From assembly GCA_003864495.1 (NCBI GenBank), contig ML133365.1:1433856-1497855 (forward strand): a stretch of DNA of 64,000 nucleotides, given 5' to 3'. A model generated the notes under the pieces. It was not told the DNA's origin. It saw nothing but the letters and a program-made list of their open reading frames with translations, and did no database searches. Below are positions 10,085 through 55,987 of the stretch, in pieces; positions within the stretch are counted from its first letter, which is position 1; the number at the start of each line of letters is the position of its first letter. Source of the DNA: Nemopilema nomurai. Lineage: Eukaryota > Cnidaria > Scyphozoa > Rhizostomeae > Rhizostomatidae. A program made the position numbers and the translations under genes.

Positions 10085-10133
10085 GCTCCTCAGATCGTTT
10101 TTCAACCCCAAAATAGGTATAGGCTTAGTGAAT

Positions 10134-10386
10134 ACACCAATTCAACATCCAGGACTGCAAGACGCGCGCTGCAGCCTGGCACTAGTTATTGGGTGAAAAA
10201 TCTCGATCGGCCTTTCGCTGCTGTTTGTTTACACTGTACGACGTGCGTTCTGTGTAGCTTTGAAAGTTGATTAAAATCACTCGAATATTTTGAAAATCAT
10301 ATTTAATATCTGACTGCGTAGCTTTATATATCGGGAACAGCTTTTTTAAAAGCTCTTAGTAAGTACCTTGTTCTGGTAAGATACGC
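10134..10386. repeat. Left terminal inverted repeat of ISL2EU copy 1
   Basis: It pairs with 14361-14615. The match covers the ACACC end, cctggcactagttattgggt, tacactgtacgacgtgcgtt, the atatatcgggaacagctttt segment and gatacgc at the inner boundary. The transposase start codon at 10407 lies about 20 bp inside the repeat, so the promoter is probably within the TIR. Confidence 0.85.
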
Positions 10387-10406
10387 AAACAGTGTGTAAA
10401 GTCAGG

Positions 10407-11974: not shown

Positions 11975-12696
11975 ACAGTTATAGTTATATATATACTTCT
12001 TTGAAATAATGTTTATAGTTATAATTGAAGTTTTTTCTTTAGGGAATGTAGGTTATTGGACTTTATTTAACATGTAGAAATTATACCTGTCTCCAGAACC
12101 TGGTCTAAACTAATTGCAGATGATTAGTAATGCATGTTTATGATAACCAATTTTCAGTGCCTTAGCTTGTCTTGAAGAATAACCCAATCTGAAGAAAAAG
12201 TGCCCTTTTCAAAATTAGCAACCAGATAAATGCATAGTTTTTATTTCTAGAGTTGAAAAACAAGGTAAGAATTTCCCCAAAAGGGGTTCATTCCTGTCAT
12301 ATCAATATATCATACCATATGCCTGCTGGGTTTTAGTTGCTTAAAATTTGTAACCTCTGCTTAAAAGAGCTGGAAAAAAGGTTATTTTCTGATAAACATT
12401 TCATGTCATTGATTTTAGGTATTAATAGTTATGTTTTGATAATTATGCTAGTAATTATGGTTGTTAAATGGGAAAGGGTCTATAATTCCAAGTCATTACA
12501 CCCACAAGAGCAGGCTCACTGCAGAAAAATGAGTAAAAATAACAATATTCAGGTTCAATGTTCAATTATCTTCTTTATTTTGAAATAAATATGGACTATA
12601 ATGATTAATGTAAAAGTCAGTAAACAAATGTCTTAGTTCATTTACCCATAGGTGGCTGTCTACCTGCAAACACTCCATAAAAGCACCACATGGTGT
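11975..12696. other. Spacer between the convergent ISL2EU genes
   Basis: AT-rich, with no motif-bearing frame; an 83-codon frame at 12337-12588 is hydrophobic and low-complexity. It presumably carries the 3' untranslated regions of both genes. Confidence 0.5.
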
Positions 12697-14301
12697 CTAT
12701 ATATATACATAGCATTGTTGGCATTTACTTGCAACCATTTGAAGTTGAACCTGTGTGTAATATTGATGGTTTCTGTTTAAACATAGTTCATTGTTATCAT
12801 TTCTCTTGAGGTAGGGTAGCTGTAGATTGACACTGGTGGGAGACATGTGCTGGATAGATGAGGGAAATTTGACCTCTAAACATGATAACCCACAGCAATC
12901 ACATTTTACCAATCTGGTAATGGCAGATCCTTCACTAAAAAAATACCACAATCCAAAATTTGTACATTCTGATTTAGCCTTTTGAATTCTGACTCAAAAT
13001 GGCTTACAGCAACAGGCTTCATTTCCCTTCCATATTTGAGAGCAGGGATATCAGGGTTTATGGTTTGCTTTCCTGAAATTTTGTCAAAAATTGACTAAAG
13101 GGAACTCCCGTTTTTAAGATAGCTAACCATCCTTGTCTTAACTTCTTGAGCCTTGGATGCACTGATGACATGCTTTCTTATTGCCCACCACAACGGATTT
13201 GTTGATTGGCCTCTAGTTCCTCTTTCTATATCTTCTATCCTTGGTGGGAAATACTCCAAATGGAGCAAAAAGTCAGTTTCACTATCGGATATCTCCAAGT
13301 AATCCTCAAAGGTTAAAAGGCCAGTTGTCTCTTGTAAACTCTTGGTCTGCTGCAACTCTTCTTCAGTTGAAAATGACTGCTGCCTTCCCACAGCGGAGAA
13401 AAGTATTGAGTCCTTCTCATCGCAGACCTCTCTCAAAGCATTGGCAATTTCACTCAAAGTTAATTCTTCCTGAGAAAATTGCACTGGCTCATACTTTTTC
13501 TTTGGAGAAGAGTTCAATTTCTTCATTTTTTTCCTTGTCTTCGAAAATCAGAGCGCGACAATTTCATGTCCTTCACTCTTTCAGGTTTAACAGGCTTACT
13601 TTTGGGCAGCCACTGACAAGCAGTAGAGGTTCATGATAGATTTGTCAATCCCATTCTATTTGCTGCTTCCAACCTGAAAAGTCCAATGTGACATTCCTGA
13701 AAAGTCCAATATTTGCAGCTACATGGTTGCATGTTTGTGACATTCCTGCCATACAAGTACAATGTGCAGTTAGGATTTTCCCAACGCTTTTATCAATGCA
13801 CAACCACAGTTTGTGGGGTACATCATTTATCTTTTGAGATGGTCTGCATGTGGTCTTTAGTAAACAGTATCTGCTGGTCTGACTTATTTCATTGAATTCA
13901 AGATTATCCAACCACCCATTTTCGTAGTAGCTATAGGCCTTAGATGTTTTGTAATCACAAAGGTCATCGTTGGCAAGCTCACTTGGGTGGAGTGACAAAA
14001 AGTTGAATATTTCTGGATATGATGTAGGAGGCCAATAACAAATACCACTTTCTTCTTTAAGCCATCCAACATCAAGAAGAAATGGATCTGGTATGCCATA
14101 ACTTTCGATCTTTGTCTTGTATTCACTAGATAGTGCTTCTTCAACTGTTTTAGCAGTTGGCAATGGCTTTACGTCGTTTTCAATTGCAACAAAAACACAT
14201 GTGACCAATACACTTTTATTACCATGCAGTTTCATCCCTCTAAGACGTAGAAATGACTTTAACTCTTCCACTTTCATCTTCGACACCATATCGTAATCCA
14301 T
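12697..14301 (-). pseudogene. ISL2EU SAP/SWIM/YqaJ nuclease (copy 1)
   Basis: Read from 14301 down, the protein starts MDYDMVSKMKVEELKSFL, a SAP-type DNA-binding helix pair. A SWIM zinc finger follows (AHCTCMAGMSQTCNHVAA, CxC...CxH intact), then, after a frame break near 13645, a linker. The YqaJ-like nuclease starts at GTRGQSTNPLWWAIRKH (about 13180) and continues through KYGREMKPVAVSHF (about 13030). The CLEVKFPSS segment (family LEVKCP; catalytic E and K present) and NHQYYTQVQLQM lie in the 12951-12697 frame. The GASPDG motif is damaged, and stops occur after KNGSSL and after PLPDW. In this family the YqaJ domain is a PD-(D/E)xK nuclease; its exact role in ISL2EU transposition is unproven. 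Confidence 0.83.
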
Positions 14302-25599: not shown

Positions 25600-26062
25600 A
25601 AGTTGGCAAACAGTTTTTTATGGGGGCCCGAATGGTTCAAAAGTATCCCTTATTGATAGAAGTATACTTTTATTGAATATTGCAACGTTGAATTAGTAAA
25701 TGGCTTTTCAGTATTAAGTTTTGGCAATGCAATGAATTATACTTCTTTGCTTGCGAATTTAATAACCTGGCAACATTATCAGAATACACACTCTCAATTA
25801 ATTAAATATGCACCAAAACAATTATTCAAGTGTTTACTTTGATAATTTATTTAATGTGCACTTTGTTATTTAATTAAATGTTTTGCAATTAATGGAAGGT
25901 CTACTTTCAGAATTAATTAAAGGTCTACTTTCAGAGTTAATTAAATGTCTGCTCGGCGAATTAATTGTGTAGTATCCCAAGATGCAAACCAAGATTTGAG
26001 CACGGAAAAGGCCTAGCAGTGGCCTAAACATTTATCAGTACCTGACCCTTTTTTAAGCTAAA
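25600..26062. other. AT-rich spacer with 24 bp tandem repeat
   Basis: At 25886-25969 the unit aattaattaaaggtctactt plus tcag repeats about 3.5 times with drift. No gene is seen. Confidence 0.6.
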
Positions 26063-27560
26063 GTGATGCCTCGTCAAAGAAGGCACAATGGTTGCGTACT
26101 CAGGGAAAGGAACGAAAGAGGGTTGTCTGTTTTTCTTTGTATCTTGCAATCGATGTTGCGTATTTTCGTTTTGGAGGATGTTTTCTCAATCAACACAGAA
26201 GATTTGCAACAGTTGGAAGAGAATTTATTGGATTCATTTGCAACCCTCACTTTGCTGATCGAATATTTAAGCAGCAATGCTAGACCAACTTCCGGACTTC
26301 CTGTGGAAACAAGAGGAAGAGTCCTTGCACTCAAGAGAGACATTTCTGTTGTCATGGACTATATTTCGCAAATCATTCATAAAGAGCAGGCAGAGTTACA
26401 GCAACAAGAAGATGCATATCGTTCACAAAATGCAGGGGGCAGCTACAACTTTGGTAGACCATACTTGGATATAACCAGGGACCAGCTGGAACATTCAATT
26501 CACTTTACTTGGAAGCAAATTGCCAAATTACTAAATGTCAGTTATTTCACAGTCAAGCGACAAAGAAAAGAATATGGAATGGAAGAGAGCAGGTTTAGCA
26601 GCGTTATAGATGATGAATTTGATGCTATCTACGCCAATTTGACAAGCCAAGAAGGGTCAAGTTTAGAGACACCAAATCTTGGCAGGCGACCATTTATGGG
26701 TGCCTTAAGGAGTCGTGCAAAAAGGGTACAGCGTTGGCGGGTAAGCGAATGCATATGCCGAGTTAATCCGATCGGCTGTGCATTGCAGTGGCGATTGGTG
26801 ATACATCACCGCAAATACTTTGTCCCAACGCCTAATAGTCTTTGGCACATAGACTCGGCCCACAGATTAATCAGATGGAAGTTCGTTGTTCATGTAGCTA
26901 TTGATGTAGAGTGATTATTTACTGCAAATGTGAAAACAACAGCAAGGCAGAAACAGTTCTTGCATTGTTTGAGGACGGAGTTTCACGATGGGGTTTGCCA
27001 TCCTGTGTCAGAATTGATCATGGCATGGAAAACTATCTTGTGGGAATGTATATGATTGAGAGCAGGGGTACCAACAGAGGAAGCATTATCACTGGCTCAT
27101 CAGTCCATAACAGTCGTGTAGAACGTACACATCGAGATGTTTACTGTGTTGTGCTTATATTTTATGCAAGATTGTTTGAATAAATGGAGCATGATAACAT
27201 CCTTGACCCAATAAACGACAGAGAATTGCTTTCCTTTCACTGCATCTTCTTACCCCGAATCAACAAGTCACTGGAGGAATTTGTTGCAAAGATGAATAAT
27301 CGCCTATTATCAACAGAGATAAATCTGTCTCCAAGGGGAGCAAGGCATGCTGGAAAACATAAATTCAGATCATACAGCAATTGAAGATATTGAGAGCTAT
27401 GGGATTGATCCAGATGCAGCGCCAGTCTTGGAGGATATAGATTATCAAGTAAATTTAGACCCCCCAAATGCTCAAATAACAGAAGCAGGAATGCAACTTT
27501 GGCCAGATCAACTAGATGATGGTCTTTAGGGAGTAGGGTTATACAATGAATGTTTGAGGC
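26063..27560 (+). pseudogene. Integrase-core (DDE) transposase, IS3EU-like
   Basis: The start MPRQRRHNGCVL (26066) fits an N-terminal helical region (INTEDLQQLEENLLDSFATL). A helix-turn-helix follows (GRPYLDITRDQLEHSI, WKQIAKLLNVSYFTVKRQR). The integrase core has NSLWHIDSAHRLIRWKFV (first Asp). After a frameshift at about 26911 come GLPSCVRIDHGMEN (second Asp) and SSVHNSRVERTHRDVY (Glu). After a TAA at 27181-27183 the core continues ILDPINDRELLSFH and FLPRINKSLEEF. A further frameshift near 27340 leads to DSDHTAIEDIESYGIDP, then a TAG and GVGLYNECLRLL. All catalytic residues survive, but two frameshifts and two stops inactivate it. Assignment to IS3EU is from memory of the family; the retroviral-type integrase fold is the firm part. 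Confidence 0.72.
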
Positions 27561-30500
27561 TTCTACAAGAGTGAAAACTGACACCTTTCCAAGAAAGCTC
27601 ATCAGATAGACAGATTAAAATTAAGGCTAGAACGAATAAACACTGATATGAAAGATAATCCTGAATTAGACACTGGTAGGCGATTAGATTTTGATCCACC
27701 CATGATTATATACGCGCTTGAAGAATGGAGAACGTCTTACTTGAAGCCATCCATTATTCTTTAAATAAGCATTTTCCTCAAATTAAAAATGTTACTGCAC
27801 AGCAACTCGAGATTTTAAAGTCTATTCTCTTGGAAAAGAGAGATACATTTGGTCTTCTCTCCCCTTTCAAATAGCGCCATGTATCGCAGCTCAGTTGTGT
27901 TCGCAAGACGGGTTTTCCTGTCTTCAAAGGAAAGATAAAGTGATTTTTCTCCCTGTTGATTGCTATAATGAAAACACAAGCTGACTTTTTAAATAAATGT
28001 GGTATTCCAGCATGCTGTTTAAATGATTGTGACTTGGATGGAAATGGGCCTAACTCGATCAAGACACAGGTGTCAGAGGGTAACTTTCGGATTATTTATG
28101 GGACTCCTGAAGCTTGGACAAACAACGAACACTGCTAATGGCTGCGAATGAGGCACATTGTATTCCAAAATGGTACATAAATCATTATTAATTCTAAAAA
28201 CATTTGTATCATGGTATCACCTACAAACATTTACAACACAACGTTTCTCAGTTGTTATAAAAGCAGAATTTTAATATATTTCCAAAATGCATGTTTTCAG
28301 TACAAAAATACATGTTTTCTTTGCTAAGATAAATCAAATAAATCAGTTTTCAATGGCATTTCTTTGCTAATTTCATCAAATGTCCTTTGATCCATTTTGA
28401 AAAGTCTGTGATGCTAAGGCTTGATAAAAGGTTTCTATCAATGTCTTTGAACTGAGCATGCTCTCTTTCTTGCTTAATGAAAAATATTTCTTTTGTCGCA
28501 AGGTTATCCACAATTGTTTGAAAATCCTTTATTTTGTTTCTGATTTTGAGATGGCCACTTCGTATGGAAAGCAGAATGTGTTTGTCAATATTTTCCAAAC
28601 TTTTTCTATAAATGCAATTGCATGGGATTCCCTACTTGCAGTTTGTTTCATCTAAATTGACATCAACATTATATAGCATCTCTGTAGTAGGGGAATTCAG
28701 TTGCTCTAAGCGCAGATCACTGGGAATGTTTTTCCCCTTGCCACCTTTCCTATTTATTGTTCTGTTCCACACAAGTTGTTCTGCATGTGCTGGGGTAAGC
28801 AATGATGTAAATTTGGATATTAATTGAAATGCAGCGGATGCATACTTGTGGTGCCCATATGGACAGAACTATTCTTTCACCATCTCCTTCTTTCACAGCA
28901 TCTTCTAAGTTTTTTAGCAACATACCAAGGTTTAACCTTGCTACTGCATATGAATACTGATCATTTTTATATGCTACATCTCCTATTGACACATGTTGCA
29001 TTGACTGTGTACCTGCTTGAAAAATGATTCCATGGACCTTTAATTCATGGCTATCTCTAATCTTTCTGTATTTGTAGCGTTTTCTGCAACCAGAATATCT
29101 GCATTTTGTAGTGATTTCTTGATCAAAGACAGTTGTGTTGCTACAGACAGATGACAGCTGGATGCCAGGTTGAACAAGATCTTCCATCAGAATTTTTTGC
29201 ACATTCTCATCAAGCCATTTTTCTTTTTTTCTTTTGATGCAGTACATATCCCTGGACGGATTACTGCGTCTTCGATTTCATCCAAAGTCTTCAAGCCGAA
29301 GGTCTTCATTGCAAGTACAACCATCAATGCATTCGTTTCAAAGTTGAGAAACTCTTTACATGCACTGAAGTTACTCATAACATTGCCTCTTGCATTGTTA
29401 TTTTTTAGAAGATTCATGTTATATTTAATTGTACCAGGGTCTTGACCAGAATTGGGATGATAGAAGATATCGTACAGAACCTGAAAGCAAAACAGAAGCT
29501 AATATAAATATGCTGCCTAAATTTCCAAATTTTTCATTTAAGTAAATTATGCACCAGTAGGAATCAACTGTATTGTTGTTACTAGCAATAATCAATAGTC
29601 TGTTAAAACAACTATTGTTTTTTATATCAGATAACCTAAAAAATTCACACCAATAAGCAACCCATCTTCACAATCCCTTTTCATTTTAACTACTATTAAT
29701 AAAATGGTGAACAACATTCAAATGTCATTATAAGTGCTTCATATGACACAGTCAAGTAAAAGGACATATTTTATGAAACAATTCATATGAAAAGACTACC
29801 TGGTACATTTACAGAATAGCATGCAAGTCTTCATTCTTTGGAATTATTCCTCTCAAGCAAGCATAATCTGAATAACCTTCAGACAATGCACCTTGCAGAT
29901 TCCTTGCTCTTTCCTCTGTCAAATTATCTCTATCAAAAATATTTGTTGCACCACTTTCTTTTTCTTCTTGTCATCTTCATCAAAGTACTCAGTAGGGACA
30001 TACTTTTCCTGAATTTCTTCCATTATTTCTATCATCTCTGATCCAACTGACTCATTCTTCATGATCGAAATAAAGCGTACCTAGAAATAAAATTCTGAAT
30101 ATGAAATTTTGCGAGGATCCAGATCCACATGGATAGTTAGCATAAATTCAGGATTTTTCTTTATTAAATTCTTGTGGATAACTTGTAGTTTTATTTTAGA
30201 AGGACAGTGATGAAGTGATGGCAATTCTTTCGAGAATTTATGCACGTTTCCTTATTGCAAACTGAAAAAGACTGGAAAAATTGGAGATAAAACAACTGTT
30301 TCAAGCAAAATATATGAATTTGCATAGAATGTAGACAACATATAATGCACAATTACTTTCATACTCCACTTGATATCCAGTAAATATTTGTGCTGTATGT
30401 GATTTTCTACACAATTTCGGAAGTCGGCAAATGCTGGGATGTTGTCAGCAATTATTCGTGCTGCTAATGGAAGAAAGTGCATAAGTAACTTTGCATTATG

Positions 30501-31904
30501 TTCTGCTATTGGGAGAAAATCTTTAACCTGCAACTCTGAAATTGGCTTCTGCCGAAGTCATTGTCCAAGTCATGACCTGTAACTCCGTTCACCACACCCA
30601 AGTTATTGAACCAATGTATTGATCGATTTTGATTGTCTGATGCCATGTGCTACACATTGACAAAGAAATCTAGATTGTCCCCGATGATTTGGAAAGATCT
30701 TCTCAACATTTCCTTTCTTATCACATCCCTTTCCTCGATCATCTGCTCATATTTGTGAACTTATTCCAGGAATTTTTCATTGCTTAGTGTTTCACACTCT
30801 CTGTACACACTGGCAACAACCTCATCCTCATTTAACTTTTCTTTTCCACATGACTTTTCGTGAGTAATTATCCTTGTCACTGTGATATTATCAATAAATT
30901 GAATTGTTAGCCGTGATGTGGGGGAATGTGCCTGCATTTGAGGATGGGCATTATGCAGTTTCAAAGCCTGGAGATTCATCTTTGTGGTATGATTTTGTAA
31001 GTCCATAGCAAGCTGTTCGACATCAAATTTCATATCTTATATAAGCCTGTCATGATTTTCCCCTGCTTCCTCCAACTTTGCTAGGACTTGCTGGCGACTC
31101 ATTGTAATGCCAAAGATTGACAATCACTGATATGCCTGAGAAGATTATAAATTTTTCTGATAGGTTACTGTTTTCTATACATTCTTTACTCTTTTTTTAT
31201 GGACAGTCATTTTCCAATTGCGAACATTGTTTGATTTTTTAGAGGTGAAGTTAATACGCTATCAAGAAGCTTTTGTAAAAGGAACTACAAGAAAGTGAAA
31301 AAAGCTTTTAGCGATGCTTTTTGAAAGTTAGGGACTTTGAGAACAGTTCTTTTGAATGTCCCAATGTTGGAACTAACGGCAACTGCAAATAGAAAGAAGA
31401 GAAAGCATATAATAAAGTCTCTTGCTATGATAAAATACTCTCTTATCAGAGTATGTCAAAATCCTCCTTCCTGTGAAAAACGTTTCACAGTTGAGTCCGT
31501 CTTATCTTGCATGGGTTGTGGAAAGGTTAGAAAAAGAAAAGGAGCAATTTCCCAAAACGATAATTTATTGTCGAAGCATTGAAAATGTTTCAAGGGTTTT
31601 TACCTTCTTAAAAGAGGAGCTGGGAGACAATGCATATGACTCCGGATTAACAGAGAAAACAACAGATGCACTTTTGAGTGGCATGTACCATCGAAAAACA
31701 CGTGAAAAGCACAAGAGTTCTGTGTTAAAAATGCCTGTCGGAAAGCGATGGTTCTTCTAGAGTTGTTGTAGCAACAACATCTTTGGTGATGGGTGTTGTT
31801 ATAAAAGGTCTGGAATATGTTGTCCACTATGGCCCACCATTAGACATAGTCACCAGCTTGGAAAGGTTTCATCAATAATGAAAACTTATGCCAAGAGTTC
31901 TTAA

Positions 31905-34251
31905 TGTGGAAGACGACATTTATTTATCGACAGGTTGGTTCTTACATTTATTTGCTTCTAACAATTTGGTTGCCATTTGGCAACTACGGTCATTCATGGT
32001 CGAATTTGTTAAATGGGCCTAAGTATGTTTACAGTCGTGTTTCCTTGTCTTCTCGACGAATTTACAGAAACACAATGGTGATTTTTGCATTGTTGGACTG
32101 TTCCTTGATTTTTAAACTTTATATTTCAATTTCAGTTTATAAGTGATGGAGACAAGATGCAAAGTTAGATACAATCTTGAGGAAGCTTTGCAGTACGTGG
32201 TAACACCCAGGTCTGACTCAGATATTTCCGATCTAGAAGATGATGATGGTGAAGATCTAGATAAAATACAGTTAGAAAGGGAACCATGCAAAGTGTCATG
32301 TCTGATAATTGTGAAATTATCGAGGATGGAATTGAAGATGCAAGCCAAAGTGATGAGGTCAACAGCGGAATAGAAGGAAACAGTAGTGCAGCAACAAAGA
32401 AGCACTCTTATCGTTGGAGTAGCCGTAAGCCACCAGTGACAGATGCTACTTTTAGCGGCCCACAGTTTAGCTTACCTCCTGACAATTTTGATCAGCTTAC
32501 TCCACTATGGTATTTTAACCAGTTCTGGGATGATACCATGACCAATCAGCTGGTAGAGCCAACAAACTTGTATAGTGTCCAAAAGACTGGTACAAATATA
32601 CTGACCCACAAAAATGAAATTGAGCAGCTAATAGGGATTCAGTTGAAGATGGGCATAGTAAAAATGCCAAAATACAATAGTTATTGGGCAGGTGAGACAA
32701 AATACTCTCCTATTGCTGATGTTATGGCGTTAAACAGATACAGAAAGCTAAGACAGTTTCTTCATGCAAATGATAACTCTGAGAAGGACAATCCAGAGAG
32801 TAAAGGCAACAAGCTGTACAAGATTGATCCAATTCTTCAATCTTTGCGTGAAAATTGCCAAAAAATTGAGCAGGAAGAGTTCCAATCCATCGACGAGCAG
32901 ATTGTCCCTGCCAAGACAAAGTTTAGTGGGATAAGACAATACAATCCTAAAAAACCCCACAAATGGGGCTTCAAGAATTTTGTGAGAGCAGGTCAGAGTG
33001 GAATGATTTATGATTTTTCTTTTATACTGGAGCTGCTAGTGCTGGAGGTGAAAAAACCTCTGCAAAAAATGTTGTCTTAAAGCTCTGTGAGAATGTCTTG
33101 ACTGGTTGCAATTATAAAGTTTTTTTTGACAATTGGTTTGCAACGTTAGATCTTTGCCTGGTTCTCAAGGAAAGGGGCATTTTAACGACAGCCACTATCA
33201 GAAATAATCGTCTTGCTGGTTGTACTCTGAAAAGTGAAAAAGAGATGAAAAAGGATGGAAGAGGCAGCTTTGGGTTCCAAACAGACCAGAATACTGGGAT
33301 GGTTGTCTTGCGCTGGTTTGACAACAAGTGTGTTACACTTGTGTCAACATACCTCAATGTTGATGAAACAGTAAATGTTAAAAGATGGAATTCATCTAGT
33401 AAAACACATGTAGATGTTACCTGCCCAATGATTGTCAAGGCATACAACACATCAATGGGGGGTGTGGACCTGGCAGATATGCTGATAGCATTGTATAGAT
33501 GCAAGATAAAAACCAAACGATGGTATCTTGTAATCCTTTTTCATGCAGTTGACATTGCAAAAGTGAATGGCTGGTTACTCTACAGAAGATTTTGCTCTCA
33601 AATGAAAGTACCTTCAAAAAAAAATTGCCCCTTCTGACTTTCACAGCCAAAATTGCTGAAAGCTTGACAAAAGCAGGAAAGGCACTGACCAATCCATCAG
33701 TGGGCAGACCAAAAAGGAGTTCATCCCAAATGTTTGATGAACATCAACCGAAAAAGGGGAGAGCTCCAAAAACTGTCCTTCCAGATCCTGATTCAAGATA
33801 TGACCAGCTGGGTCACTGGCCTTACTATGATGAGAAGAAAAATAAATGCAGGCTTTGCAAAACGGGCTACAGTCGTGCATACTGTGAAAAATGTAAAGTG
33901 TGCTTGTGTCTCACTTCCAATAAAAACTGTTTTCGCGACTTTCACAATTTGTAATAGAGTCAATTTAGAACACTTTAGAACAGTACTATTTAGTGGATTT
34001 TAGCTCTGATTTACTGCTTTTGCATGGATGTATGATGTTTATAATGTTCTGTTGATTTTATGAAACATATCTATTTTTGTGTTTTCACCTTTGATGTCCA
34101 TAGTTGCCATACGGCAACCATTAAAAGACAATAGAATATAATAAATTTTTGAAAAAAAAATAATTTTTATTTTTAGATATGCATTTAGAGTGTAAATTAC
34201 CAGAAGAATAATTTTTTTCAAATGAATTTTGAATAATTGGACAGTAAAGGG
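31905..34251. mobile_element. piggyBac element inserted in the helicase gene
   Basis: TTAA at 31901-31904 and 34252-34255 flank the element, and removing it in thought with one TTAA restores the helicase frame (CQEFL|REALY). The right end reads ...ggacagtaaaggg|TTAA, a typical GGG end. The left end (tgtggaagacg) does not match it, so the left terminus has decayed or been rearranged. Subterminal palindromes ggttgccatttggcaact (about 31969-31986) and agttgccatacggcaacc (about 34103-34120) occur near both ends in inverted order, as in other piggyBac elements. Confidence 0.75.
32286..33954 (+). pseudogene. piggyBac (PGBD-like) transposase
   Basis: An acidic N-terminus (from 32143 or 32286) leads into DDE_Tnp_1_7: PLWYFNQFWDDTMTNQLVE, LKMGIVKMPKYNSYWAG and QSIDEQIVPAKTKFSGIRQY (first catalytic Asp). 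After a 1 nt slip near 33025 come VLTGCNYKVFFDNWFATLDL (second Asp) and YNTSMGGVDLADM (third Asp). After loss of one A in a poly-A run at about 33617 the C-terminal Cys-rich zinc ribbon follows: CRLCKTGYSRAYCEKCKVCL ending FRDFHNL. All three Asp residues and the Cys cluster are present; only two frameshifts separate it from an intact ~600-residue protein. Insertion into an already mobile gene shows it arrived later than the helicase. Confidence 0.9.
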
Positions 34252-35418
34252 TTAAGAGAAGCGCTGTACAGCAATTTTACAAAGAGTGGAATAAAACAGC
34301 CTAGTACAAAGCGTGATTGTTGCATATATTGCTATGGACAATGTAAATGTTTTGATGGTATGAACTGTGATAAACCACAGTTACCATTTAATGAAGAAGA
34401 CAACATTGAAAAAGATGCAAAATTTCAAATAATTTCGAAAAAGGAGGGGAACCTTCTAACAGCGGTTTTACAAGATCTCAAGTCAAGTGCAGAGCAAGAA
34501 TTTGCAGGATGCATTGCATTTGCTGACAATACCTGACAGGAATCTCTCAGTCAACCTTAAATGAAATCGAAGAAGTAGCAGAATACATCTCAAGTATAAG
34601 ATATATTTTGGAAAATACCTCTGTAATTTCAAAGACGCATGGATCTGACATACTTTTTATAATGAAATATTTGAGGACATTCCTGAAAATGAGATTGCCA
34701 ATGCAAGGATAATAAGTGTTGAAGAAGAAGTTCACCAAGCAATTCAGGATATTAGCTTTCTTGAGTCTGGCATGGAATTTATTTCTGATAATGAAGCTGA
34801 AACATCTTTCCATGATAATTCAGGTGTACTTAATGACTTTTTGAAGACATTGTTGAGTTTGAATTTTCTGATGCTAATGATGAAAATTAGTAATATGGAG
34901 TTTTTTGTCTAGTTGTAAATGATGATATGAGATGTTTTGATTGCAAATGATTAACTCATCATCTAAAAAGCTCTCTCTAACAATATGAAGTCAAAACCAA
35001 ATGAGTTGAACGTGATTGAGAGTCACAAACATTGGCAAAATTTACCTTCTAATCCCTAATCAGGGGCGGATCTAGGCAAAAATCTCACCGAAAATAGGGT
35101 GTGGTCTAAAGGGCGTGGTCGAATATTTTTACTTTATTTTTGCGCGTGCGCAGTGTAAATTTTAATTTTCACCGGCGCTGTTTTTAAAGCTTAAAACTAC
35201 ACAAATAAACACAAGCTCTGATGTCTATCTACAAAACTTGATTGGCTAACAAGAACCAACAAAAACTAGTGAGAAGAAGAAGCAAAATGTAACTGATATG
35301 AAGAAAATCAAAACAACAAATTTTACCTTATCAAGACCAATACTTATCAAGACCTTACCAAGCCGAAGCCCAAACAAAGAGCATTCCGAAAAACTTTGCT
35401 TCTTGTAATACTTGAGTA

Positions 35419-38030
35419 CAGTGGCGGAAATTCGGGTTTTATTTGGGGGGGGGCTCAGGCTCACGATTTTCCGACAAGTAGACAGACACAACAAAATTTC
35501 ATTGGCGTTATAAGAAAAATTACCAAACTTGAAGAGCAAACTTTTATTAACAAATGCAGCTTAAATTAAAGGAAATTCAAAATTATTTAAACCCCTTGTT
35601 GCATTGGAAACACAAGAAATTAGTAAATCAATGAATGTGGTGAACGTAAGCTAATTAATGTTACTGATTAATGTATAAATTTCAAGGGCAAAAATATAAA
35701 ACTATATTTGGAGAAGCGATCAAAGAGAAAATTTATTTCGTTGGTGCATCATTGATGCGAAGACATCTAGAGCATGGCTTAAATCAACTGCTCTCTATGG
35801 CTCAATGGAGATGTAAATTTGATGTTTTTTGCTGATTCATTGTTGTCCCTTGGTAAGATTTGATCAGCATTAATTTCGAGAAAGACCTTTCTGTCTCGGC
35901 ACTTGTGACCGGAAAAAAACTTGGTAGAGCTTGTACAAATTTGGAAAATTTTTGTACAGTTTTGAAATATACAAAAACTTGAAAACGCGCTTAACACTAG
36001 TGCACTGGTAGCTCATTTCCTTTGATTTAAACACTTTTTGAAAATGGCAATGCGCTTCTTCGTGGGTATTCAACGCCGCTGCTTTCTTTGAATTCAGCTT
36101 GGAGCAAAGAATATTCCTGGAATACTTCCTCCTTTATGTCTCCAGAGCCGTTATCAGGACCATTTTCCTGGAAAAAGGACTTCCAAACAACGCCTGTTCT
36201 CCTCGGGGGCTGATTCAGTAGACGTTCTGGCATCAAACATTGGAAAGCCCTAAGGATGTCCCTGTGGTTACTGAATCTGTCAATCATCTGCTGCTTGATC
36301 ATATCTAATGCGTAGTAGAACACATCGGTCTTAAACAATTGCTTAGGGTCTTTTGCTGTTTCGTCAGAGGAAACATCATCAAAATGTCGCTTTCTCTTTT
36401 GAGGCCTTTTCTCTTGAAAGTCGGACTTTCCCCGGCATTGGCAGCAACCTTTCTTGCACGTTCTAAAAATTCTTCCAATTTCTGTTTATTTCTCATTTCA
36501 CTGAGGTTTTTAATACTTGAATCTATAAGGTCAAGCGCTTCACCCAAATCAATGTCACTTTCCTGCAGAGCTTTATTTACGATGTTTGTTGTTTGAAGAA
36601 TTTCCTTGAAAATGATTGTCACCAATGTGAATTCAAATTTTTTACAAAAGCGTAGAAGTCCACTTGCTCTACTGACAACTTCTGTTTCAGTTTCCACGTC
36701 TACTACATCTTCTAGCATGGCAATTATTGCTGGGTAGGTATCCATCACCTTAACAACTTGACTATGAGACTTCCAATGCGTGAGTGGGTGGTACTTTAAT
36801 GTTCTGATGGTGTCGAAACCAAGCTCTTTTTAGACCTGCTGAAAGTGCTCGTTGTGCTTAGGGCTAGCCTCGATAAAGTTGTACAGCTCTTCCAGGTTTG
36901 CAAAAAAAAATTTAAACTTCACATTTCAATTTAATGCCTAAAGAAGCACAAGGTTTAAGGACATGACATGCACAATGTACACTTTTGACAAAGGGGTTGG
37001 CACTGATAATCCTTGCATTTAGCCCTTTATACTGTCCTTGCATGTTAGCGGCTCCGTCTGTTCCAATTCCTCTCAAATCTTTCAAATTTCAACCAAATGA
37101 TTCGAGCTGCCTTTTAACTTCATCAAAAAACAACTCCCTGGTTGTCGAAACAACATCTTTAAACGTGAGAAATGTCTCATAAATTTCGCCTTCGAGAGCA
37201 TACCTTAAAATAAAGGTTACTTGCTCTTTTTTCGAAGCATCTGCTGTTTCGTCTATCAGCATGGAAAATTTCTGCAGATCTAATCTCTTCCATGATCTCC
37301 CTTCGCAGCACCTCAGCAATTGAGTGGACCATTTCATTTTAGGCAGCTGAACTTGTGTAGTTGGCATATTATGGGTTCGCTTCCAGCTGCTTTGCAAGAG
37401 TCATATCATACATTGCTAAAGTTCCTTAAAGTTTGCATAAGTTCCTTAAAGTTTCATCTGTTACTAGAACATGGACCTTCATTATTACCTCTGAATGCAA
37501 TATTTTGGCGAGCAAAAAATAGTGACAGTTGTAGGAGAGAAAACATTGATTTTCTGTTTGCTGCCATCTTCTTCTTTCTTTGGATGCTTGCAATTTTGGC
37601 ACTTGTTGAGAGGCAATTCTTAATATTCTGCCCTGATATGTAGGTTGAATACTTAAATGCTGCCGTTAAGTGAATTTCAGTGTTCTTGTGTTGCCTTATT
37701 TTTGTTAGAGCTTTATTCCAATTGGTCACGCCTAGTTGTGTCCAGGTTTTATCATAATATGGCATCGTTTCTGGTATGAATAAGAGGCACCAAAAACAAA
37801 ACATGCACTTTCGCCTTCAGTAATGGAGCGCATGAAGTGTCACAAGAAACGACCCCTATTGTTAAGTAACAAACCCTAGTTTTCAAAATGTGGGACACAA
37901 AAAATGTCAGTCATCTTGGATGGGCTTTCGGCATGCTCGACGTTTGTAAAATTTCCGACGACAGCCTGAATTATCCGACGACAAGATAATTGGGCGGGGC
38001 ACCCCCAAACCCTCGTAATTTCCGCCACTG
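35419..38030. mobile_element. hAT element A, nested, with perfect 8 bp target duplication
   Basis: The ends CAGTGGCGGAAATT (35419-35432) and AATTTCCGCCACTG (38017-38030) are perfect 14 bp inverted repeats flanked by CTTGAGTA on both sides (35411-35418, 38031-38038). This is a diagnostic hAT insertion, younger than hAT element B in which it sits. Confidence 0.93.
35779..37804 (-). pseudogene. hAT transposase of element A (DUF4371/ZMYM type)
   Basis: From the minus 5' side: WTQLGVTNWNKALTKIRQH (zinc-finger/TTF-like region) and KKKMAANRKSMFSLLQL; then the DUF4371-like core with KFSMLIDETADASKKEQVTF (first catalytic Asp region) and SFG. After further frame breaks come helical segments (IKNLSEMRNKQKLEEF, YALDMIKQQMIDRFSNHRD) and a weak C-terminal dimerisation region (LYKLYQVFFRSQVP, about 35930). 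At least four frame changes occur. It belongs to the hAT group related to vertebrate ZMYM genes. The order of pieces is correct, so this is a decayed autonomous copy rather than scattered fragments. Confidence 0.72.
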
Positions 38031-38223
38031 CTTGAGTATACCTTGTCAACGAAACAGTTTCTTTTTTCTAAACTTTAAAATTCTTCACATTGCAAACTAA
38101 GGGGATTTATTCCTTTCCAATGCAAAGCAGAGACAAGACTTCTTTAACATGAAGCAAAAATATTCAAAATTGTCAGAATTAAGAGATGGAGAAAATCAAA
38201 ATTACTATGAAGCCTTTTACTAT

Positions 38224-38296
38224 GACTCGATAGCTCAGCAGAAGAGCACTTGGCGTACAAAATCAAAGGTCGTGAGTTCGATTCCCGCTTGGGTCG
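38224..38296 (+). tRNA. tRNA-like sequence, probably a tRNA-derived SINE head or tRNA pseudogene
   Basis: A 73 nt segment starts gactcga and ends ttgggtc plus G. These ends form a 7 bp acceptor stem with two G-T wobbles. The A box tagctcagcagaagagc gives a GCTC/GAGC D-arm, and the B box gagttcgattcc gives a canonical T-loop with one mismatch in the stem. The anticodon stem does not fold well, so no isotype is assigned. It lies between the ends of nested hAT elements. The sequence downstream to about 38390 may be a SINE body, which suggests an inserted SINE rather than a working tRNA gene. Confidence 0.5.
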
Positions 38297-38454
38297 GTTA
38301 TTTTTCCGCACTCTCTTTGATCCTATGTAGCCTTTTTGCAAATTGTTCAAAAGCATCTAGGAAGAATAATGGATGAATGTTTCTGTAGAACGTGAAGTTT
38401 TCAACTGCGCATCGTATTCTCGACCATAACATGATCATCAGGGTACGATAAACA

Positions 38455-38612
38455 ATTATTAAATCTGGATGCAGTTCTTCAATGCAAGGCGAGGCTGGAG
38501 GCGATAAAATGGAGGCTCACGTAAAACAATTATTAAATCTGGATTCAGTTCTTCAATGCAAGGTGAGGCTGGAGGCTCACGTAAAACAATTATTAAATCT
38601 GGATGCAGTACA
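38455..38612. repeat. About 65-75 bp direct tandem repeat, 2.4 copies
   Basis: The unit begins aacaattattaaatctggat and ends gaggctcacgtaa; copies start near 38450, 38524 and 38585. The first copy has an extra cgataaaatgg. The repeat sits just 3' of the hAT element B transposase stop and may be subterminal sequence of that element. Confidence 0.75.
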
Positions 38613-38615
38613 AAG

Positions 38616-40194
38616 TTAATAAAGTTCAGAATTTATTGCTTCATAATTTTCATCAAGATTGCTGTCTGATTTCAACAGATTAATGAGGGAAAGGCTTCTC
38701 TTGCATTTGCGAGCGAATGTTTCAATTACTTCTTTGATATTTATTTTGAGATCTTTGTGGGTGTAAAGGCTGGCGAGTCCATTTAAGCGGTCTTGAGACA
38801 TTGTGCTTCTTGTATAGGTTTTAAGAAGCCGAATAGCTAGCTGATGCAGATCTTTCTCAGCTACAGCTTGTCACAAGAAGAACAGCTAAAATTCTCAATG
38901 CAGTAGAAATATTTGGAAAGAAAATTGGGTTTGTTTCCTTCAACGTTTCTGCAATAGTTTCCGGCAGCATGTTATCCGGTACATTACATCAAAACGACTC
39001 CCAATTATCCACTTCATAGGAAAGATTTGAGACATCCGGAAGATCATCTGCATACTGGTTATAAAAATGTTCAAAATCAATTTTCAACTTCTTGTCAACG
39101 CGCTGTATTTTTACTCTTTTGTTCTCCCTGCTGCCTTGAATTTTAGAAGATATTGCCTTGATTCTCTTAAGTTGCGGTACATTTCCCCCAGCATTTAGAA
39201 TGTCAGCATCTTGAATGGATCGTTTGTGGCCAATAACAGAGCACTCTTTGTCAGATGACCTAATGATGGCCGGAACTATAGAGAGACCGTTTAAGGCGAT
39301 ACAATTTTCATGTGAAAATCTTGACAGAAACTGCTGTAGAAGATGATCCAAGAATGGAATAGAAATGTTGACCTTGTAGTGGCTGGATACGTCAGAAGAT
39401 GGAGCATTATTTTTAACTTCTGTTTACTGCAGACCCTATAGGCCATGACAGGTGCTTCAACTCTCTCTGCTAATTCACACGAATCTTGAAACCACTGTCT
39501 GTGATAGGTTTCAATTTCACTTCAGACTTTTTGCAAGGATATAATTGTTGTTTTGACCATCTAAAGCCCTTTCAAGATATCGACCTCCACATCTTGAAGT
39601 TGAACAGTAGCAGCGTGAGTATATCCAAGGCTGTTCCTTACCACAGTGAGAGTCATTAGAAAGTTGAAGTTTACCAGCAATAACCAAAAAGAAGATGCAT
39701 CAGCTGCACATGAATTCCAACTCCTGTCTCTGTTTTGGCTGATGAATAACATTGTTTCCACTATAGCTTCAAAAATTTCGAGGAATCTACCCAGACCATC
39801 GATATGCATAACCCACCTGGTACGACAAACATCCAAAAGCTTTGTATATTTACAATTTGGATTCGTCTTCTTAATATTGGCTTCCAATAGTTGAGACAAA
39901 AGAGCTATTGAGACAAATGCCAATAACGAACATTTTTTAAAAACTAGTTTAAAAACGAACATTATACCATTTTGTAAAAAAATGAGAGGGAACATCGTCG
40001 AGGGCCTTGCAAACACAGTTGGTAAAACAGTAGCTTACGAACAAAAGAATGTGAAAATTACTTCGCAAGAAAAAAATTCTTTCCTGGTTCCACATGCATT
40101 TTTCAACAGACAAAGGAGCAAGCTTCCCAAGTTTAGTAAGTTCCAATGCTGACAGGGTTCTCAAGCTCTCCAAATCTTTTCCGAGGAGATCCAT
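38616..40194 (-). pseudogene. hAT transposase of element B
   Basis: From 40194: CMWNQERIFF, then LLEANIKKTNPNCKY, LLDVCRTRWVMHIDGLGRF (the conserved CxTRW block of the hAT RNase-H domain) and EIFEAIVETMLFISQNRD. At 39351-38989 is PFLDHLLQQFLSRFSHEN, and the C-terminal dimerisation motif SQDRLNGLASLYTHKDLKIN ends the frame at 38616. It resembles the P52rIPK/ZMYM1-like hAT group. Several stops and frameshifts separate the blocks and the N-terminal BED finger is not seen. Together with the perfect terminal repeats at 35061 and 40833 this is a decayed autonomous element. Confidence 0.78.
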
Positions 40195-41604
40195 GATAAC
40201 TAAGATTTTTTTTGAATCCGCGGGAACAGAATGCTGATCAATGATACAGAATTGAAATGAGGTTCCTGATCATTTTCAAAATCACCCATCACCCTCCTAT
40301 CACTAGTATCACCCTGGTATCAGTTGCGGCACTTGTGCGGCATTTGGAGGTTCCAAATAACCATACGCTGAACGTTCCCCATATATTTCACATATACAAG
40401 AAATCTCTCATACATCTCATCGATGCCGCAAGGACAACAATATAAATGACGTAGGGTCACAAAATCGATTGTTTAAAGCTGTGCGGGCAACAAAAATTAT
40501 TATGCGAAATGCCGCAAAAATAATTTATGTCAAATCATCTCTTGCAGCGAACAGGATCATGTAATCAAAATAACAGAATCCTTTATTCGTTCAATACGAG
40601 GCAAAACAATATTGTTGCTGAAGGACCAATGGACCAATAAGGAAAATAGATACCAGCAAAGTAAAAAATCAAAGGGCGCAATACCCAATAAATGGGGTAT
40701 TCGGGAGAAGTGAGAACGTAGGCCATACGCAAAGAAATGAGAGAATGTTTTGAGAGTAGGTTTTCTTAATATCTTTCCGGCGGCAGATTACTGCCTTAAG
40801 CAAGGCATTTGCGGCACCCTAGATCCGCCCCTGTTAATAATGATAATAATCCTAAGACGACATTGTTTATGAAAAGATAATTTGTCATGTTTGGATGGCA
40901 ATATAAGATCAAAATACTTACCCTTTTCTTTGCCCCATTGTGATGTAGAATGAATGATGTTCTGTATGCAAGAGCAGACAGTTAAGGGCACCTAGTTCTC
41001 AACAATTATGCAGCTGTCAACGCAAAACCAGGAATGGTGGTATCCTTTGCTGTTCCTTCCAAGATTTTCACCTGGCGCTTTTTTGCGCAACAAAACACTT
41101 TGTAAAACTTTGTGCAAAGTTGGTGCTCTTGTTGCCAATTCCCCAATTATTGCATAATTTTTAAAATTTAGTAAGTCACGGCAGGATGTTTTTGATAAGA
41201 TGCTTCGGTATTTTCGACTTGTATTTCTTCTTGTTTCCTCTTGTTTGACTTCTTCAATAACTTTAAAAAAGTGACCCTTTAAATGTATGCATGTGGCAAT
41301 TTGCTTAATCCTATCAAAGTATTTCCCCTAAGCCAAGTATTTTATAATTGAAGCAACTTCAGCTGAGTTTATTGCTGTTACCTTTTCTCCAGATAGATAG
41401 CTGACCTCCACCTTTGGAAATTTAAAGATGTAAGTAAACAACTTTTTAAGTCCTCAGGTCTCATTCCTAAACAAAGTGAATACTGACAGCTACATTTATA
41501 AAAAAGAGTAAATGTTAACCATAAAGTAAAGAAAATAAATTAGTCAAATCATTGAGTAAATGATTTTATAAAAAAATGATAGTACGCACAACTTTGGTGC
41601 TAAA

Positions 41605-41760: not shown

Positions 41761-41882
41761 GCATGAATGATTTTTGCAAGTGCAGACCGACGAACGACTC
41801 AAACGATCAACGCAAAGACCCACTTTCTCTTCATGGAAACGAGATTTTCTTATTACCGTGTTTTGGCTAGAACAAAAACAAG

Positions 41883-42846
41883 ATGGCTTTATTTTCCGCG
41901 GCAACCATCATGGAAGAAGTTCAGAGATACGAGTGCCTCTACAACAAACACTCGAAAGATTTTAAAGATAGATATAAGAAAATTAATTCGTGGAAAGCCA
42001 TTGCACATAAATTTAGCGACCTAACACCTGCAGATGCGGAAAAGAAATTCAAGAACATAAGGTCATCTTACACAAGATTTCTGAAGAAGGTCAAGGCTGC
42101 GCCTTCAGGATCTGCAAGAGATTATATAAGCATCCCAAAAGATTTCGTGGGTCTTGATTGGCTCGATAATTTTATTGAACATCGGAAGACATGGAGTAAT
42201 GTTCCCAGCGAGGCCGTGACTCAAAAGAGAAACAATCCGATAACATTTAGAGAGGAGATTGAAGAACATGACGGCGAGGATCACGATTCTGATTTATCAA
42301 TTGACGTTGTAGATAGCCCTGTCATTACAGATGATACTCATGAGGCAACTTTCCCTGATAACAATTTTGAAAATTCTCAAGCAACTTTCCCTAAAGAGCA
42401 ACAGAATTCATCTTCGTCATCTGGTGCTTCTGCTTCAAGTACTGTTGCTGTTAATGCACAGGAAAAAAAGAAAAGACCTTGGTCTTTAAACGAAAAGAAG
42501 CCTAGCAAAGATGCAATTGACCATGCAATTCTTGATACTGCAAATTCTTTAAGAGAAACGCTGACAAAAGCAAGAGAACAAGTTTGTCAACACCCTGATT
42601 TTGGGGATGAGGATAGTCAGTTTGTTGCAGTTTGATTCCAAGGTTTAGAAGATTTGAGCAAAGACAAAAAGCATATCTGAGATTACAAATTGAACAGCTT
42701 TTGTTCAATGCTGAGTTTCCATTGCAAGCACCATACCAGCAAGCAGCACCTGTGCAATGTCCCTCATCTCAAGGATTTGCCACCCAAACCCATCCAGTAG
42801 CAAGTTCATATCATGCACCATCACCAAGAAATTATACACAACTTTG
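41883..42846 (+). pseudogene. MADF-domain DNA-binding partner of Harbinger element 2
   Basis: The start at 41883 gives MALFSAATIMEEVQRYECL, and the MADF domain (MADF_DNA_bdg) follows: YNKHSKDFKDRYKKINSWKA, DAEKKFKNIRSSYTRFLKKV and LDWLDNFIEHRKTWSN. A Ser-rich acidic linker precedes KKKRPWSLNEKKPSKDAIDH. A frame slip at about 42635 separates the C-terminal helix FEQRQKAYLRLQIEQLLFNA, characteristic of these partners, from the rest; the tail ends at 42846. Apart from that single slip it is intact, 250 codons plus about 70. It would bind the adjacent repeat array and recruit the transposase encoded convergently at 43377-46849. Confidence 0.82.
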
Positions 42847-53116: not shown

Positions 53117-55987
53117 GCAATGGCGACATTGTGAAAACGATGCGTCCAGTTGTTGTTAAAGAAACAAGATTTGCCAACTATTTCACTTGTGTCTCCGAAA
53201 CCATCTGAATGTATTTGGGCAAGATAACTAGCGTAAATGCCTTCCTTGGTATAGCAAGCCGTCAAAAAGGTCTTATCTTCATCTGGAGCTTGGTCCCCAC
53301 CTTCATTCACGAACTTCTTAAGCCAGATCTTCGCTTGCACCACTTTTTCTATTTCGCGTCTAATCCCGTGCTTCTCGCTTCTCCCGTCACCTCTACTGTA
53401 AATTTCGAAATCCTGCTTCAAAGAATAGTACCTGAAAAAATTTGCAAAGTTTCAAGCCATCAAACTCAGACTCAAGAGTCAATGTACCCTGGGTAACAGA
53501 ACCATATAAATTCGAATGCGAGCGCTCCTCCTCCTCTCTGCTTGGCACTTTGTTTACGTGCTAGAAATTATCTGGAACCGAGAGTAGAATCAACGCAACC
53601 AGCTTTGTTAATCTAGTCTTAAATTAAACTACACATTTTGTAGGTTTCCTTTTTTATAGAAAATTGTTTGTAAACTTTAAAACTAGAAGATATTGTCCTA
53701 TCTTTACAGGAGCTTGCAAAAAGAAAACTTTCCACTCTTTCCGTTTTGGCTTCCTATTTTCTTCAACTTTTTAGGGAAAATTATTTATTTCAGGTATCAT
53801 CGTAAAATCTGGTTATTTCCTGTAACTTAAACGGATATATACAAATTGGACATGAAAATAACGCTTTTTGATTAACGCTATCTTTGTCATTGCAAAAAAC
53901 TGTAGTAGTGTCATACCTATAATTTGAAATTCCATGAATAAACTGCCAAGCTTTGCGACAAATCTTATTTGTTCCAACGAAGAAGCCCCAGTTTCCTGTC
54001 GTTAGAATTGTACTGAAGACGTGCAAAACTCTCCCGCTGCTTCTCCCCAGACAATTCTCAGAAATGTTTCCACAGGTCGTACATGGTTTTTAAGTTTATT
54101 TTTGCTAGGCATCTCTCAGTGCAGCATACAGTGTCAGATGTTGATATCTTTTGATGCCTTTGCACTAAGGAAACAATGCATGATGTTATAAATGTGATAT
54201 CAAGATAAAAAAGAATAAAAAACTTACCTTGTTGCCAATGTCAATGAATGTCGACGAATGGTCTATGTCTTTTACCTTCATTTTCTTCATACGCATCCAA
54301 GTCCACCTACATTTACAGGGGAAAAAATATAAGAAACTTTGGAACTTATACAATTGCTTGCAATTTGAAAAAAGATCTACAATGCCCAGGGGGGTTCTCA
54401 GCACATAGACATATAGACAGTAAGCCCAAGAAATTTTAAAGACTCAAAAGATATCGGCAAAAAGTTGCAAAACTTCCGAAGAATATAGTCACATGACTTC
54501 AAATGGGCAATAAAATCTTAGCTGATTGTAATACATTTGATTCAGGTAGGGAATTCTCCAAAAAAACAAAAATGTTTGCTATAATTGGTACCCTGAAGTA
54601 TCAGAATTGTATCCAGGGTTGGATCCACACCAATGCAAACTGATGCAACTGATGCGAAAATTTCAATTTCTAACAGACTCAGATAATTTTGTTCCTACAT
54701 TTTATATGGTCTCTCAGCTAGGACAAATGTACTTTCAGATTGATGCAACTCCTGGTACGATAAAAAATTAATTTTTCACGACATCCTGTCATCGCAGCTC
54801 TGCATGCTGTAAAAAGGCCAAAAAATAGTTTGCTAGCAACAGAGTTTTTATATTTCAAAAGACTTGGAATGGAAAAGGGCAAGGCGCTTGACCAAATGTA
54901 TCTAAAAGGGCGTTCCCGTGCTTTCTTAGTGGTTAAAGGGCGGAAGATTGGTCTCAGAACATTTTCTGGGGGGAAGCCCCTATATTTGCATGGGTAACTA
55001 ATATTTCTGGATTCGCCCCCTGATTGTATCTTTGGTTTTTGCAGGACCCAAAAGTATAATTTCTGACAAATATCTAACTCAAAAATGTTACTTTGGGAAA
55101 GCAATTGACCCATGAATATCGGACTGTCCCCGGATGTGTGTGTGCCCTAATTACAGGAGCGGATCTAGCCTAATTTTTGAGTGAGTTCCTTTCTTCCGTG
55201 AACATTCCCCGCCATTTTCACACAAACAGAACTGTCCGTCGGCCTCACACACAAGTCTCATGCAGACACGTTGGTCTCAGTTCCAAACATTGAAGAACCT
55301 GAAGTCCTCAGTTGTCAGCCAAGATAAAAATAAAAGTCTGAGCTCCAAACATTTAAAACAATGCTAAGGTCTTAGTCCTAAACCTTGGGCAGCAAACAAC
55401 AAAACATAGCAGGGTCTGACCTCCAGCGATTTTTTGCAGGCAGTCTAAGGCTCGTTTTGGTTTCGGCTGGTGGTGAAACTCACGAAATTTTAACCTCAGT
55501 TAGAGTGAAATTTGAATGTTGTGAGTGATGGAAAAGATTTTGGAAGTATTTTGATTATCATTATTCTATTCTCGGAGACAAATCTATGAAATTTTGACTA
55601 AGTTCTTGAACTCACGGAAATCACGTTAAATCCGCCCCTGACGTACTGTATTACTCATGCACCGCCACTGCCTGAGTCATAAAATCAAAACAGCTTTTTG
55701 ACATCCAATTTTGCGTTTAAACTGTCTATTTTCAAGAGATCCATTTGATCGAATCGATTCAAATGCATAATGTTTTTCAGTCTTAAGTTCTGATAATTAC
55801 CGATAAAAACCTTGCTAATTATACTTTAAAAAGTCTGTTGCATAATACCAGGATCTGGCAAATAATATAACTTACCTTTTTTTGAAAGCCTATTTTACTT
55901 TCGGCCAATGTTTTGTTTTCTTGCAACGAACTGTCATTTTCCTCATTCACCTCGCCACTTTCAAACGAGCTTTTCCCGCGTTTCATA
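53117..55987 (-). CDS. Unrecognised spliced gene, transposon-linked family suspected
   Basis: Exon 1 (55987-55878) opens MKRGKSSFESGEVNEENDSS and ends with a consensus GTAAGT donor. An exon candidate lies at 54309-54226 (gtag acceptor, gtaagt donor). A third, about 54075-53926, reads KPCTTCGNISENCLGR and GNWGFFVGTNKICRKAWQFI, then HGISNYR. It splices in phase (AG|G) to the exon 53437-53117: YYSLKQDFEIYSRGDGRSEK, KIWLKKFVNEGGDQAPDEDK and YTKEGIYASYLAQI, ending NNWTHRFHNVAIAPV at a GTGAGT donor. The exons show no stops. The CxxC-IC-ISxxR pattern and the W..HFHNV-like end recall DUF7869-type cnidarian proteins; this is tentative. Further exons below 53117 are not identified, and the phase of the second exon is unresolved. 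Confidence 0.5.
54614..55022. mobile_element. Non-autonomous hAT (MITE), 409 bp
   Basis: It is flanked by ATTGTATC on both sides (54606-54613, 55023-55030), a perfect 8 bp target duplication. The ends cagggttggatccac and tctggattcgccccctg are imperfect inverted repeats of the same CAGGGGCGGATC type as hAT element B. It has no coding capacity and lies in an intron of the minus-strand gene at 53117-55987. Confidence 0.85.
55154..55640. mobile_element. Probable hAT-type MITE, 487 bp
   Basis: The left end caggagcggatctagcc and right end ttaaatccgcccctg are inverted relatives of the CAGGGGCGGATCTAG ends seen at 35061/40833. No matching 8 bp flanks (cctaatta / acgtactg), so old or rearranged. Another hAT-like end (accgccactg) lies at 55661-55670. 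Confidence 0.55.

Follow-up and report, generated by a model that had tools for sequence, protein, structure and literature searches.

Reciprocally nested helicase and DUF6589 genes in a decayed, apparently AcademH-type transposon copy of Nemopilema nomurai

A 64,000-nucleotide stretch of the genome of the scyphozoan Nemopilema nomurai (C1:1433856-1497855, C1 being contig ML133365.1; hereafter the window) contains a RecQ-like helicase gene on the forward strand and a DUF6589 gene on the reverse strand, the pieces of which alternate along the DNA. We conclude, with a probability of about 0.87, that these are the remains of a dead AcademH-type transposon copy whose two inward-pointing genes are reciprocally nested, and that the copy belongs to a lineage most likely derived from an element with convergent (tail-to-tail) genes. 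The 3′ half of each gene sits in an opposite-strand intron of its partner, and either full-length protein would require the splicing-out of a long intron that carries, in antisense, the exons of the partner with their stop codon and presumed poly(A) site.

Results

Block order and junctions in the window. With less damaged copies as queries, tblastn placed the blocks in the order helicase N-terminal, DUF6589 C-terminal, helicase C-terminal and DUF6589 N-terminal, on alternating strands (E-values of 7.8e-8 for HN, 1.8e-26 for HC, 3.6e-23 for D6 and 1.1e-14 for DN), and a match to the DUF6589 profile PF20231 falls inside the exon C region (C1:1462409-1462723). Splice-site sequences were read at the breaks (the slash marks the junction): helicase exon 1 ends AAAATG/GTACAT and exon 2 begins at 31243 (TTTTTTAG/AGGTG), while DUF6589 exon B ends AAAAGG/GTAAGT at 40922 and exon C begins at 31135 (CTTCTCAG/GCATATC). 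An earlier note on this DNA had proposed that the two genes lie in each other's introns, which the block order and the GT and AG junctions confirm; among the break points that it gave, 28172, 31243, 40922 and 31135 are exact junctions, and the start of exon B, which it set at 41437, is probably at 41411 (CCAAAG/GTGGAG).

Recurrence of the layout. A PF20231 profile search of the genome (212.9 Mb, 226 contigs) gave 26 matches. Ten of these loci were taken as 20-kb stretches onto which the window pieces were mapped by tblastn. The interleaved order was present in three of the ten, namely C45:905389-914850 (C45c), C2:464919 (C2a) and C56:311631 (C56); at the remaining seven loci the pieces of DUF6589 lie together and the helicase, where matched (6/7), lies past their C-terminal end on the opposite strand. 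Genome-wide protein searches with the four blocks and both query types, merged with the PF20231 matches, yielded 42 coordinate clusters, all cluster counts being lower bounds. Four blocks were found in 16 clusters, four of them interlocked (the window, C45:907125, C56 and C2:1344477, here C2b) and 12 convergent; three blocks were found in one interlocked (C2a) and three convergent clusters, two of the latter with their halves some 15 kb apart; in two clusters exon B is accompanied only by an antisense helicase exon 2, and the remaining 20 are partial or of another kind. The block order of the window is thereby seen at four other loci, and because these repeat it the order is not due to chance.

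The loci C1:1118150 (C1b) and C53:1928091 (C53b) are 98.6% identical over 13.8 kb, some left flank included, and represent one truncated insertion duplicated along with its surroundings; C1b, which matches C45c at 97.6% identity across 5.2 kb, runs from exon A through exon B and antisense helicase exon 2 to exon C. C56 and C2b are also segmental duplicates (97-99%), with homology extending more than 5 kb beyond the last DUF6589 block. The separate interlocked insertions are thus five in number: the window copy, C45c, C2a, C56/C2b and C1b/C53b. Further DUF6589 and RecQ-like pairs, a search for which the earlier note had proposed, are present, and interleaving is kept in other copies; side-by-side copies, which it had regarded as speaking against the interlock, do exist at the 12 convergent four-block loci, and those sampled separate from the interlocked copies in both gene trees described below.

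Two observations were made alongside. The C1/C53 duplication also bears open reading frames (ORFs) that are piggyBac-like and copia-like by appearance, together with a minisatellite of about 50 bp period, with an array that is not the same in both copies. At C136:2030072-2031793, a convergent C53-type exon B (99%) is accompanied by helicase exon 1 (95%) with no block placed between them, and this locus is probably an internal-deletion derivative.

Element ends and target duplications. C45c (local positions 3690-13151, 9,462 bp) is flanked by inverted repeats of 128 aligned bp with 93% identity and by a perfect 9-bp target duplication, ATGCAACAT. Because its blocks lie inside a single terminal repeat pair and 9-bp duplication, both genes belong to one element, which supports the proposal that one transposon encodes a transposase and a helicase as interdigitated antisense genes. 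In C45c the distance from the end of the element to the start codon is 224 bp for DUF6589 and 287 bp for the helicase, and both genes therefore read inward. Long inverted repeats were detected in five of the 13 loci scanned, these being C45c and the convergent elements on C53, C133, C168 and C62 (72-76 bp). The convergent elements of this genome have the same two genes as the interlocked ones, 9-bp duplications (9/9 in C53 and C133, 9 bp in C62 if the end is set at TAGCCTG, 8 bp in C168) and ends that begin TA(G/C/T)CCTG, but their genes are tail to tail without interleaving and their terminal repeat differs from that of C45c after the first bases. Of the two sides of C56, only the helicase side yielded an end motif of the C45c type.

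Searched against the genome, the C45c end sequence gave 28 matches, of which 11 were inspected: seven are paired-end mini-elements of 71-244 bp and four show a single end within the inspected stretch. Across the matched part, the better-scoring ends of the mini-elements share 88-100% identity with the C45c end, and their target duplications are perfect over 9 bp in six of seven and match at 7 of 9 positions in the other. Elements with such ends have therefore transposed, and in the simplest reading the mini-elements would have been mobilised by the interlocked lineage's own proteins. One mini-element, of 102 bp, lies in the window at 53485-53586, with C45c-like ends (TACCCTGGGTAACAGA) and a 7-of-9 target duplication (GAGTCAATG and GAATCAACG); it is the sole window match to the C45c-type and convergent-type end motifs, none of which was found beside the window copy. 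Terminal repeats with duplications of 3-4 bp had been anticipated around the element: the repeats are present in C45c, the duplications measure 9 bp, and neither was recognised beside the window copy, which has lost its ends.

Introns and splice sites. In C45c, helicase exon 1 ends AAATG/GTACGT and exon 2 begins CAG/GGGTGAT (W/G, phase 2; intron of 4,597 bp), while DUF6589 exon B ends AAAAGA/GTAAGT and exon C begins ACAG/GCCTAT (phase 0; intron of 1,967 bp); the two acceptors are 85 bp apart, compared with 107 bp in the window. The splice-site sequences of both introns recur in diverged copies, the helicase acceptor excepted. Helicase donors read GTAAGT in C56 and C2b, GTATGG in C2a and GTACGT in C45c; the DUF6589 donor is GTAAGT in all four copies inspected (C45c, C1b, C56 and the window), and its acceptor is AG/GC(C or A)TA in all four inspected (C45c, C1b, C2a and the window). 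Splicing across both long introns is predicted from these junctions. An AATAAA or ATTAAA hexamer lies 270 bp past the DUF6589 stop and 190 bp past the helicase stop of C45c, each in the partner's intron, though AT-rich DNA often contains such hexamers, which were counted without a shuffle control. At the protein level, Stylophora P0079 (PKWG) and Porites P0195 (AKKQVY) are continuous across the helicase and the DUF6589 junction, respectively, and the gene models P0193 and P0194 start just upstream of exon C.

The helicase intron of the convergent C53 element interrupts the same codon in the same phase as that of C45c (CAATG/GTGAGT ... CAG/GGGTGT), and the donor site is the same in convergent C168 and C62 (CAATG/GTATGT); the DUF6589 intron of C53 has the same phase and lies, as judged by eye, within about 2 residues of the interlocked site. 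The two stop codons of convergent C53 are 33 bp apart. Since both layouts share both introns, a single non-inverting block move, with breaks in an intron, the intergenic space and an intron, would suffice to convert one layout into the other.

Phylogeny and selection. Interlocked and convergent copies are separated by a branch with support of 99/99 in a maximum-likelihood tree of DUF6589 (29 rows: 4 interlocked, 11 convergent, 14 outside) and of 99/97 in the corresponding helicase tree (31 rows: 4 interlocked, 10 convergent, 17 outside). Both trees were midpoint-rooted and included ten of the 15 convergent clusters (C1:1529k, C1:1774k, C2:208k, C45:966k and C45:1227k were left out). The eleventh convergent DUF6589 row, C45a, was labelled by resemblance, its helicase not having been placed; C2b was dropped from both trees and C1b, which gave no DUF6589 row, from the helicase tree; C160 forms a long branch in the DUF6589 tree. 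As the layouts separate in both gene trees, the interlock characterises one lineage and is not common to all elements of this kind. Since the interlocked clade also contains proteins of other sources (P0002, P0004, P0005; P0074, P0075, P0077, P0078, P0080, P0081), the lineage, if vertically inherited, probably predates the split of its hosts. In other hosts, neighbouring gene numbers for DUF6589 and helicase models (Seg389.5/Seg389.3; gene2117/gene2116) suggest that the two genes are linked there as well.

Between diverged interlocked copies, the ratio of non-synonymous to synonymous differences per site (pN/pS) was 0.38-0.55 in 8/8 pairs over both genes, with pS of 0.64-0.81, i.e. with synonymous sites near saturation; two near-identical pairs gave 0.32 and 0.55. 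Both genes remained protein-coding while interlocked. Scans of the viral contigs and genome contigs collections revealed no DUF6589 relatives; the helicase scans of the contig collections gave 3 loci and then, as the best 80 of 290, RecQ-like viral or bacterial sequences of 25-34% identity, which were not used.

Protein identity and classification. Within its alignment to the C45c query the protein P0073 shows 97% identity, and it contains Helicase_C (4.7e-18); the relative P0079 contains DEAD and Helicase_C and matches RecQ-family helicases, among them a Bloom helicase in the PDB (1.2e-28). The second gene, the putative transposase, was identified as PF20231, the motifs DN-D, GDNLT-ER and EGDG-R having been spotted by eye only. 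AcademH was reportedly defined by Kojima in 2020 as the helicase-bearing lineage of the Academ superfamily. Features held in common with AcademH, as it is portrayed in citing descriptions, are a RecQ-like superfamily 2 helicase beside a second large gene, terminal inverted repeats and 9-bp target duplications; the reciprocal nesting may set the present lineage apart. According to the sections of PMC10045372 that concern these groups, AcademH target duplications measure 9 or 10 bp, while AcademX has duplications of 3 or 4 bp and a nuclease in place of the helicase; the present elements have 9 bp and a helicase. The link to AcademH drawn in the earlier note is thus supported by the 9-bp duplications and the RecQ-like helicase.

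A RecQ helicase is also carried by the DNA transposon KolobokH, and in Kolobok-1_CCri it is encoded in the complementary strand; Kolobok is, however, a separate superfamily, and the excerpted text of PMC9587614 does not mention reciprocal nesting.

Discussion

Several observations weigh against the account given above. No undamaged interlocked copy was present among those read: C45c has frame breaks in both genes, and in C2a, C56 and C2b nothing matches the 5′ portion of helicase exon 2. A match to exon B is also lacking in C2a, as are matches to DUF6589 exons C to ~D4 in C56 and C2b, which therefore appear to share one deletion. Because that 5′ portion is unmatched in C56, C2b and C2a, the helicase acceptor is readable only in C45c, in its near-copy C1b (CAG/GTGTGAT) and, in mutated form, in the window. 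The seven interlocked loci reduce to five insertions because C56/C2b and C1b/C53b are segmental duplicate pairs, and only one of the five loci with long terminal repeats (C45c) is interlocked. Of the 25 inverted pairs in the 24-46 kb region around the window copy, none was recognisable as terminal repeats. Finally, the AlphaFold model of DUF6589 (P0193, 14 sequences) was too poor for use, with a predicted local distance difference test score of 50.

As to what the interlock does, we lean slightly towards its being a neutral accident without functional effect, tolerated by virtue of the two introns; a single origin fits this reading, and the sister elements manage without an interlock. Its persistence until synonymous sites were nearly saturated is compatible with either view. 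That the interlock is a selected control device, acting through colliding polymerases, complementary pre-mRNAs and a protein ratio that would limit itself because each 3′ half is antisense to the partner's intron, is considered unlikely. Were it so, the element would be an autonomous transposon that uses reciprocal nesting, retained in several cnidarian hosts, for its own regulation, and internal deletions would tend to strike both genes together, of which C56/C2b appear to be a case.

A single origin of the lineage, from a tail-to-tail convergent element, is most likely, the block swap having presumably run from the convergent to the interlocked layout. The reverse polarity, with the interlocked layout ancestral and the convergent one derived, is doubtful, although each layout occupies one side of a single branch, the rooting is by midpoint only and the block move works either way. 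Nothing decisive stands against it; a simple tail-to-tail start is likelier by prior expectation, and convergent copies are the commoner here (12/16 four-block loci).

It is improbable that the helicase is made as two proteins, exon 2 being an independent gene with no splicing past the DUF6589 exons. The predictions for the closest relatives (P0073-P0078, P0080, P0081) do have Helicase_C as their sole domain, with 56-64% coverage of the query, but gene predictions readily end at a long intron, phase 2 (TG/G) is preserved between the donor and acceptor of C45c, which match the intron of convergent C53, and Stylophora P0079 runs uninterrupted across the junction. Least credible is an accidental alternation of pieces of two copies in the window through assembly error or secondary rearrangement, for while this copy is decayed, bears an insertion and has no recognisable terminal repeats, the order is kept at four other, much diverged loci, the splice-site sequences recur and the C45c blocks share one terminal repeat pair and target duplication. 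An assembly artefact or chimaera was excluded by the repeated loci and by C45c with its intact ends.

Nested genes are common. As in ordinary nesting, an intron here contains opposite-strand gene sequence, but the present nesting is reciprocal and partial, with half of each gene in the partner's intron. No report of this layout was found among the matches listed from the open-access literature, a scope outside which the original AcademH description falls. The finding would represent two protein-coding genes, each with one half inside an intron of its partner, carried by a mobile element that has spread in such a form. The convergent sister lineage with matching introns in the same genome provides a natural before/after pair, making directly testable both whether such a mutually antisense, splice-dependent arrangement of genes is costly or beneficial and the notion that introns allow one-step reshuffling of gene halves without damage to the reading frame.

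Features of the window copy

The window copy (Table 1) is dead, with stops and frameshifts in both genes: joining at the mutated helicase acceptor would now yield TGA, and a stop lies within DUF6589 exon C between AYQ and LS. Pfam searches of nine broken window pieces returned one weak DUF6589 match (0.0029, below the cut-off) and otherwise unrelated sub-threshold matches.

Table 1. Positions of the element's parts and of the inserted transposase in the window (position 1 is the first nucleotide of the window).
Feature	Position	Strand	Remarks
RecQ-like helicase exon 1	27725..28172	+	ends PKW, donor GTACAT; decayed
Helicase intron	28173..31242	+	contains DUF6589 3′ exons of the opposite strand; phase 2 (TG/G) position as in C45c and C53
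Helicase exon 2 (part of Helicase_C and C-terminus)	31243..34912	+	split by piggyBac-type insertion
DUF6589 exon B (N-terminal part)	40922..about 41411	-	donor AAAAGG/GTAAGT
DUF6589 intron	31136..40921	-	contains helicase exon 2 of the other strand and further sequence
DUF6589 exon C to stop, several exons	28350..31135	-	wholly within the helicase intron
Spacer of 107 bp with two opposed 3′ splice sites back to back	31136..31242		85 bp in C45c
piggyBac-type transposase ORFs in helicase exon 2	32265..33951	+	later insertion, foreign to the element

No DUF6589 exon A was detected between 26001 and 43000; an ORF with a MADF DNA-binding domain lies at 41871-42632, near the place expected for that exon. 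At the other end, ORFs of an Integrase-core (rva_4) transposon are located at 26057-27180, a few hundred bases upstream of helicase exon 1, and this transposon may have replaced the helicase-side end of the element. The 34.9-40.9 kb part of the DUF6589 intron has no assignment to the element. Within that intron, the segments 37092-37400 (-) and 38619-40269 (-) are hAT-like by appearance, the former with a sub-threshold DUF4371 match and the latter without a Pfam match in two scanned frames. The piggyBac-type element in helicase exon 2 (DDE_Tnp_1_7) extends over 31960-34130, with GTTGCCA...GGCAAC arms close to both ends and TTAA at its right side.

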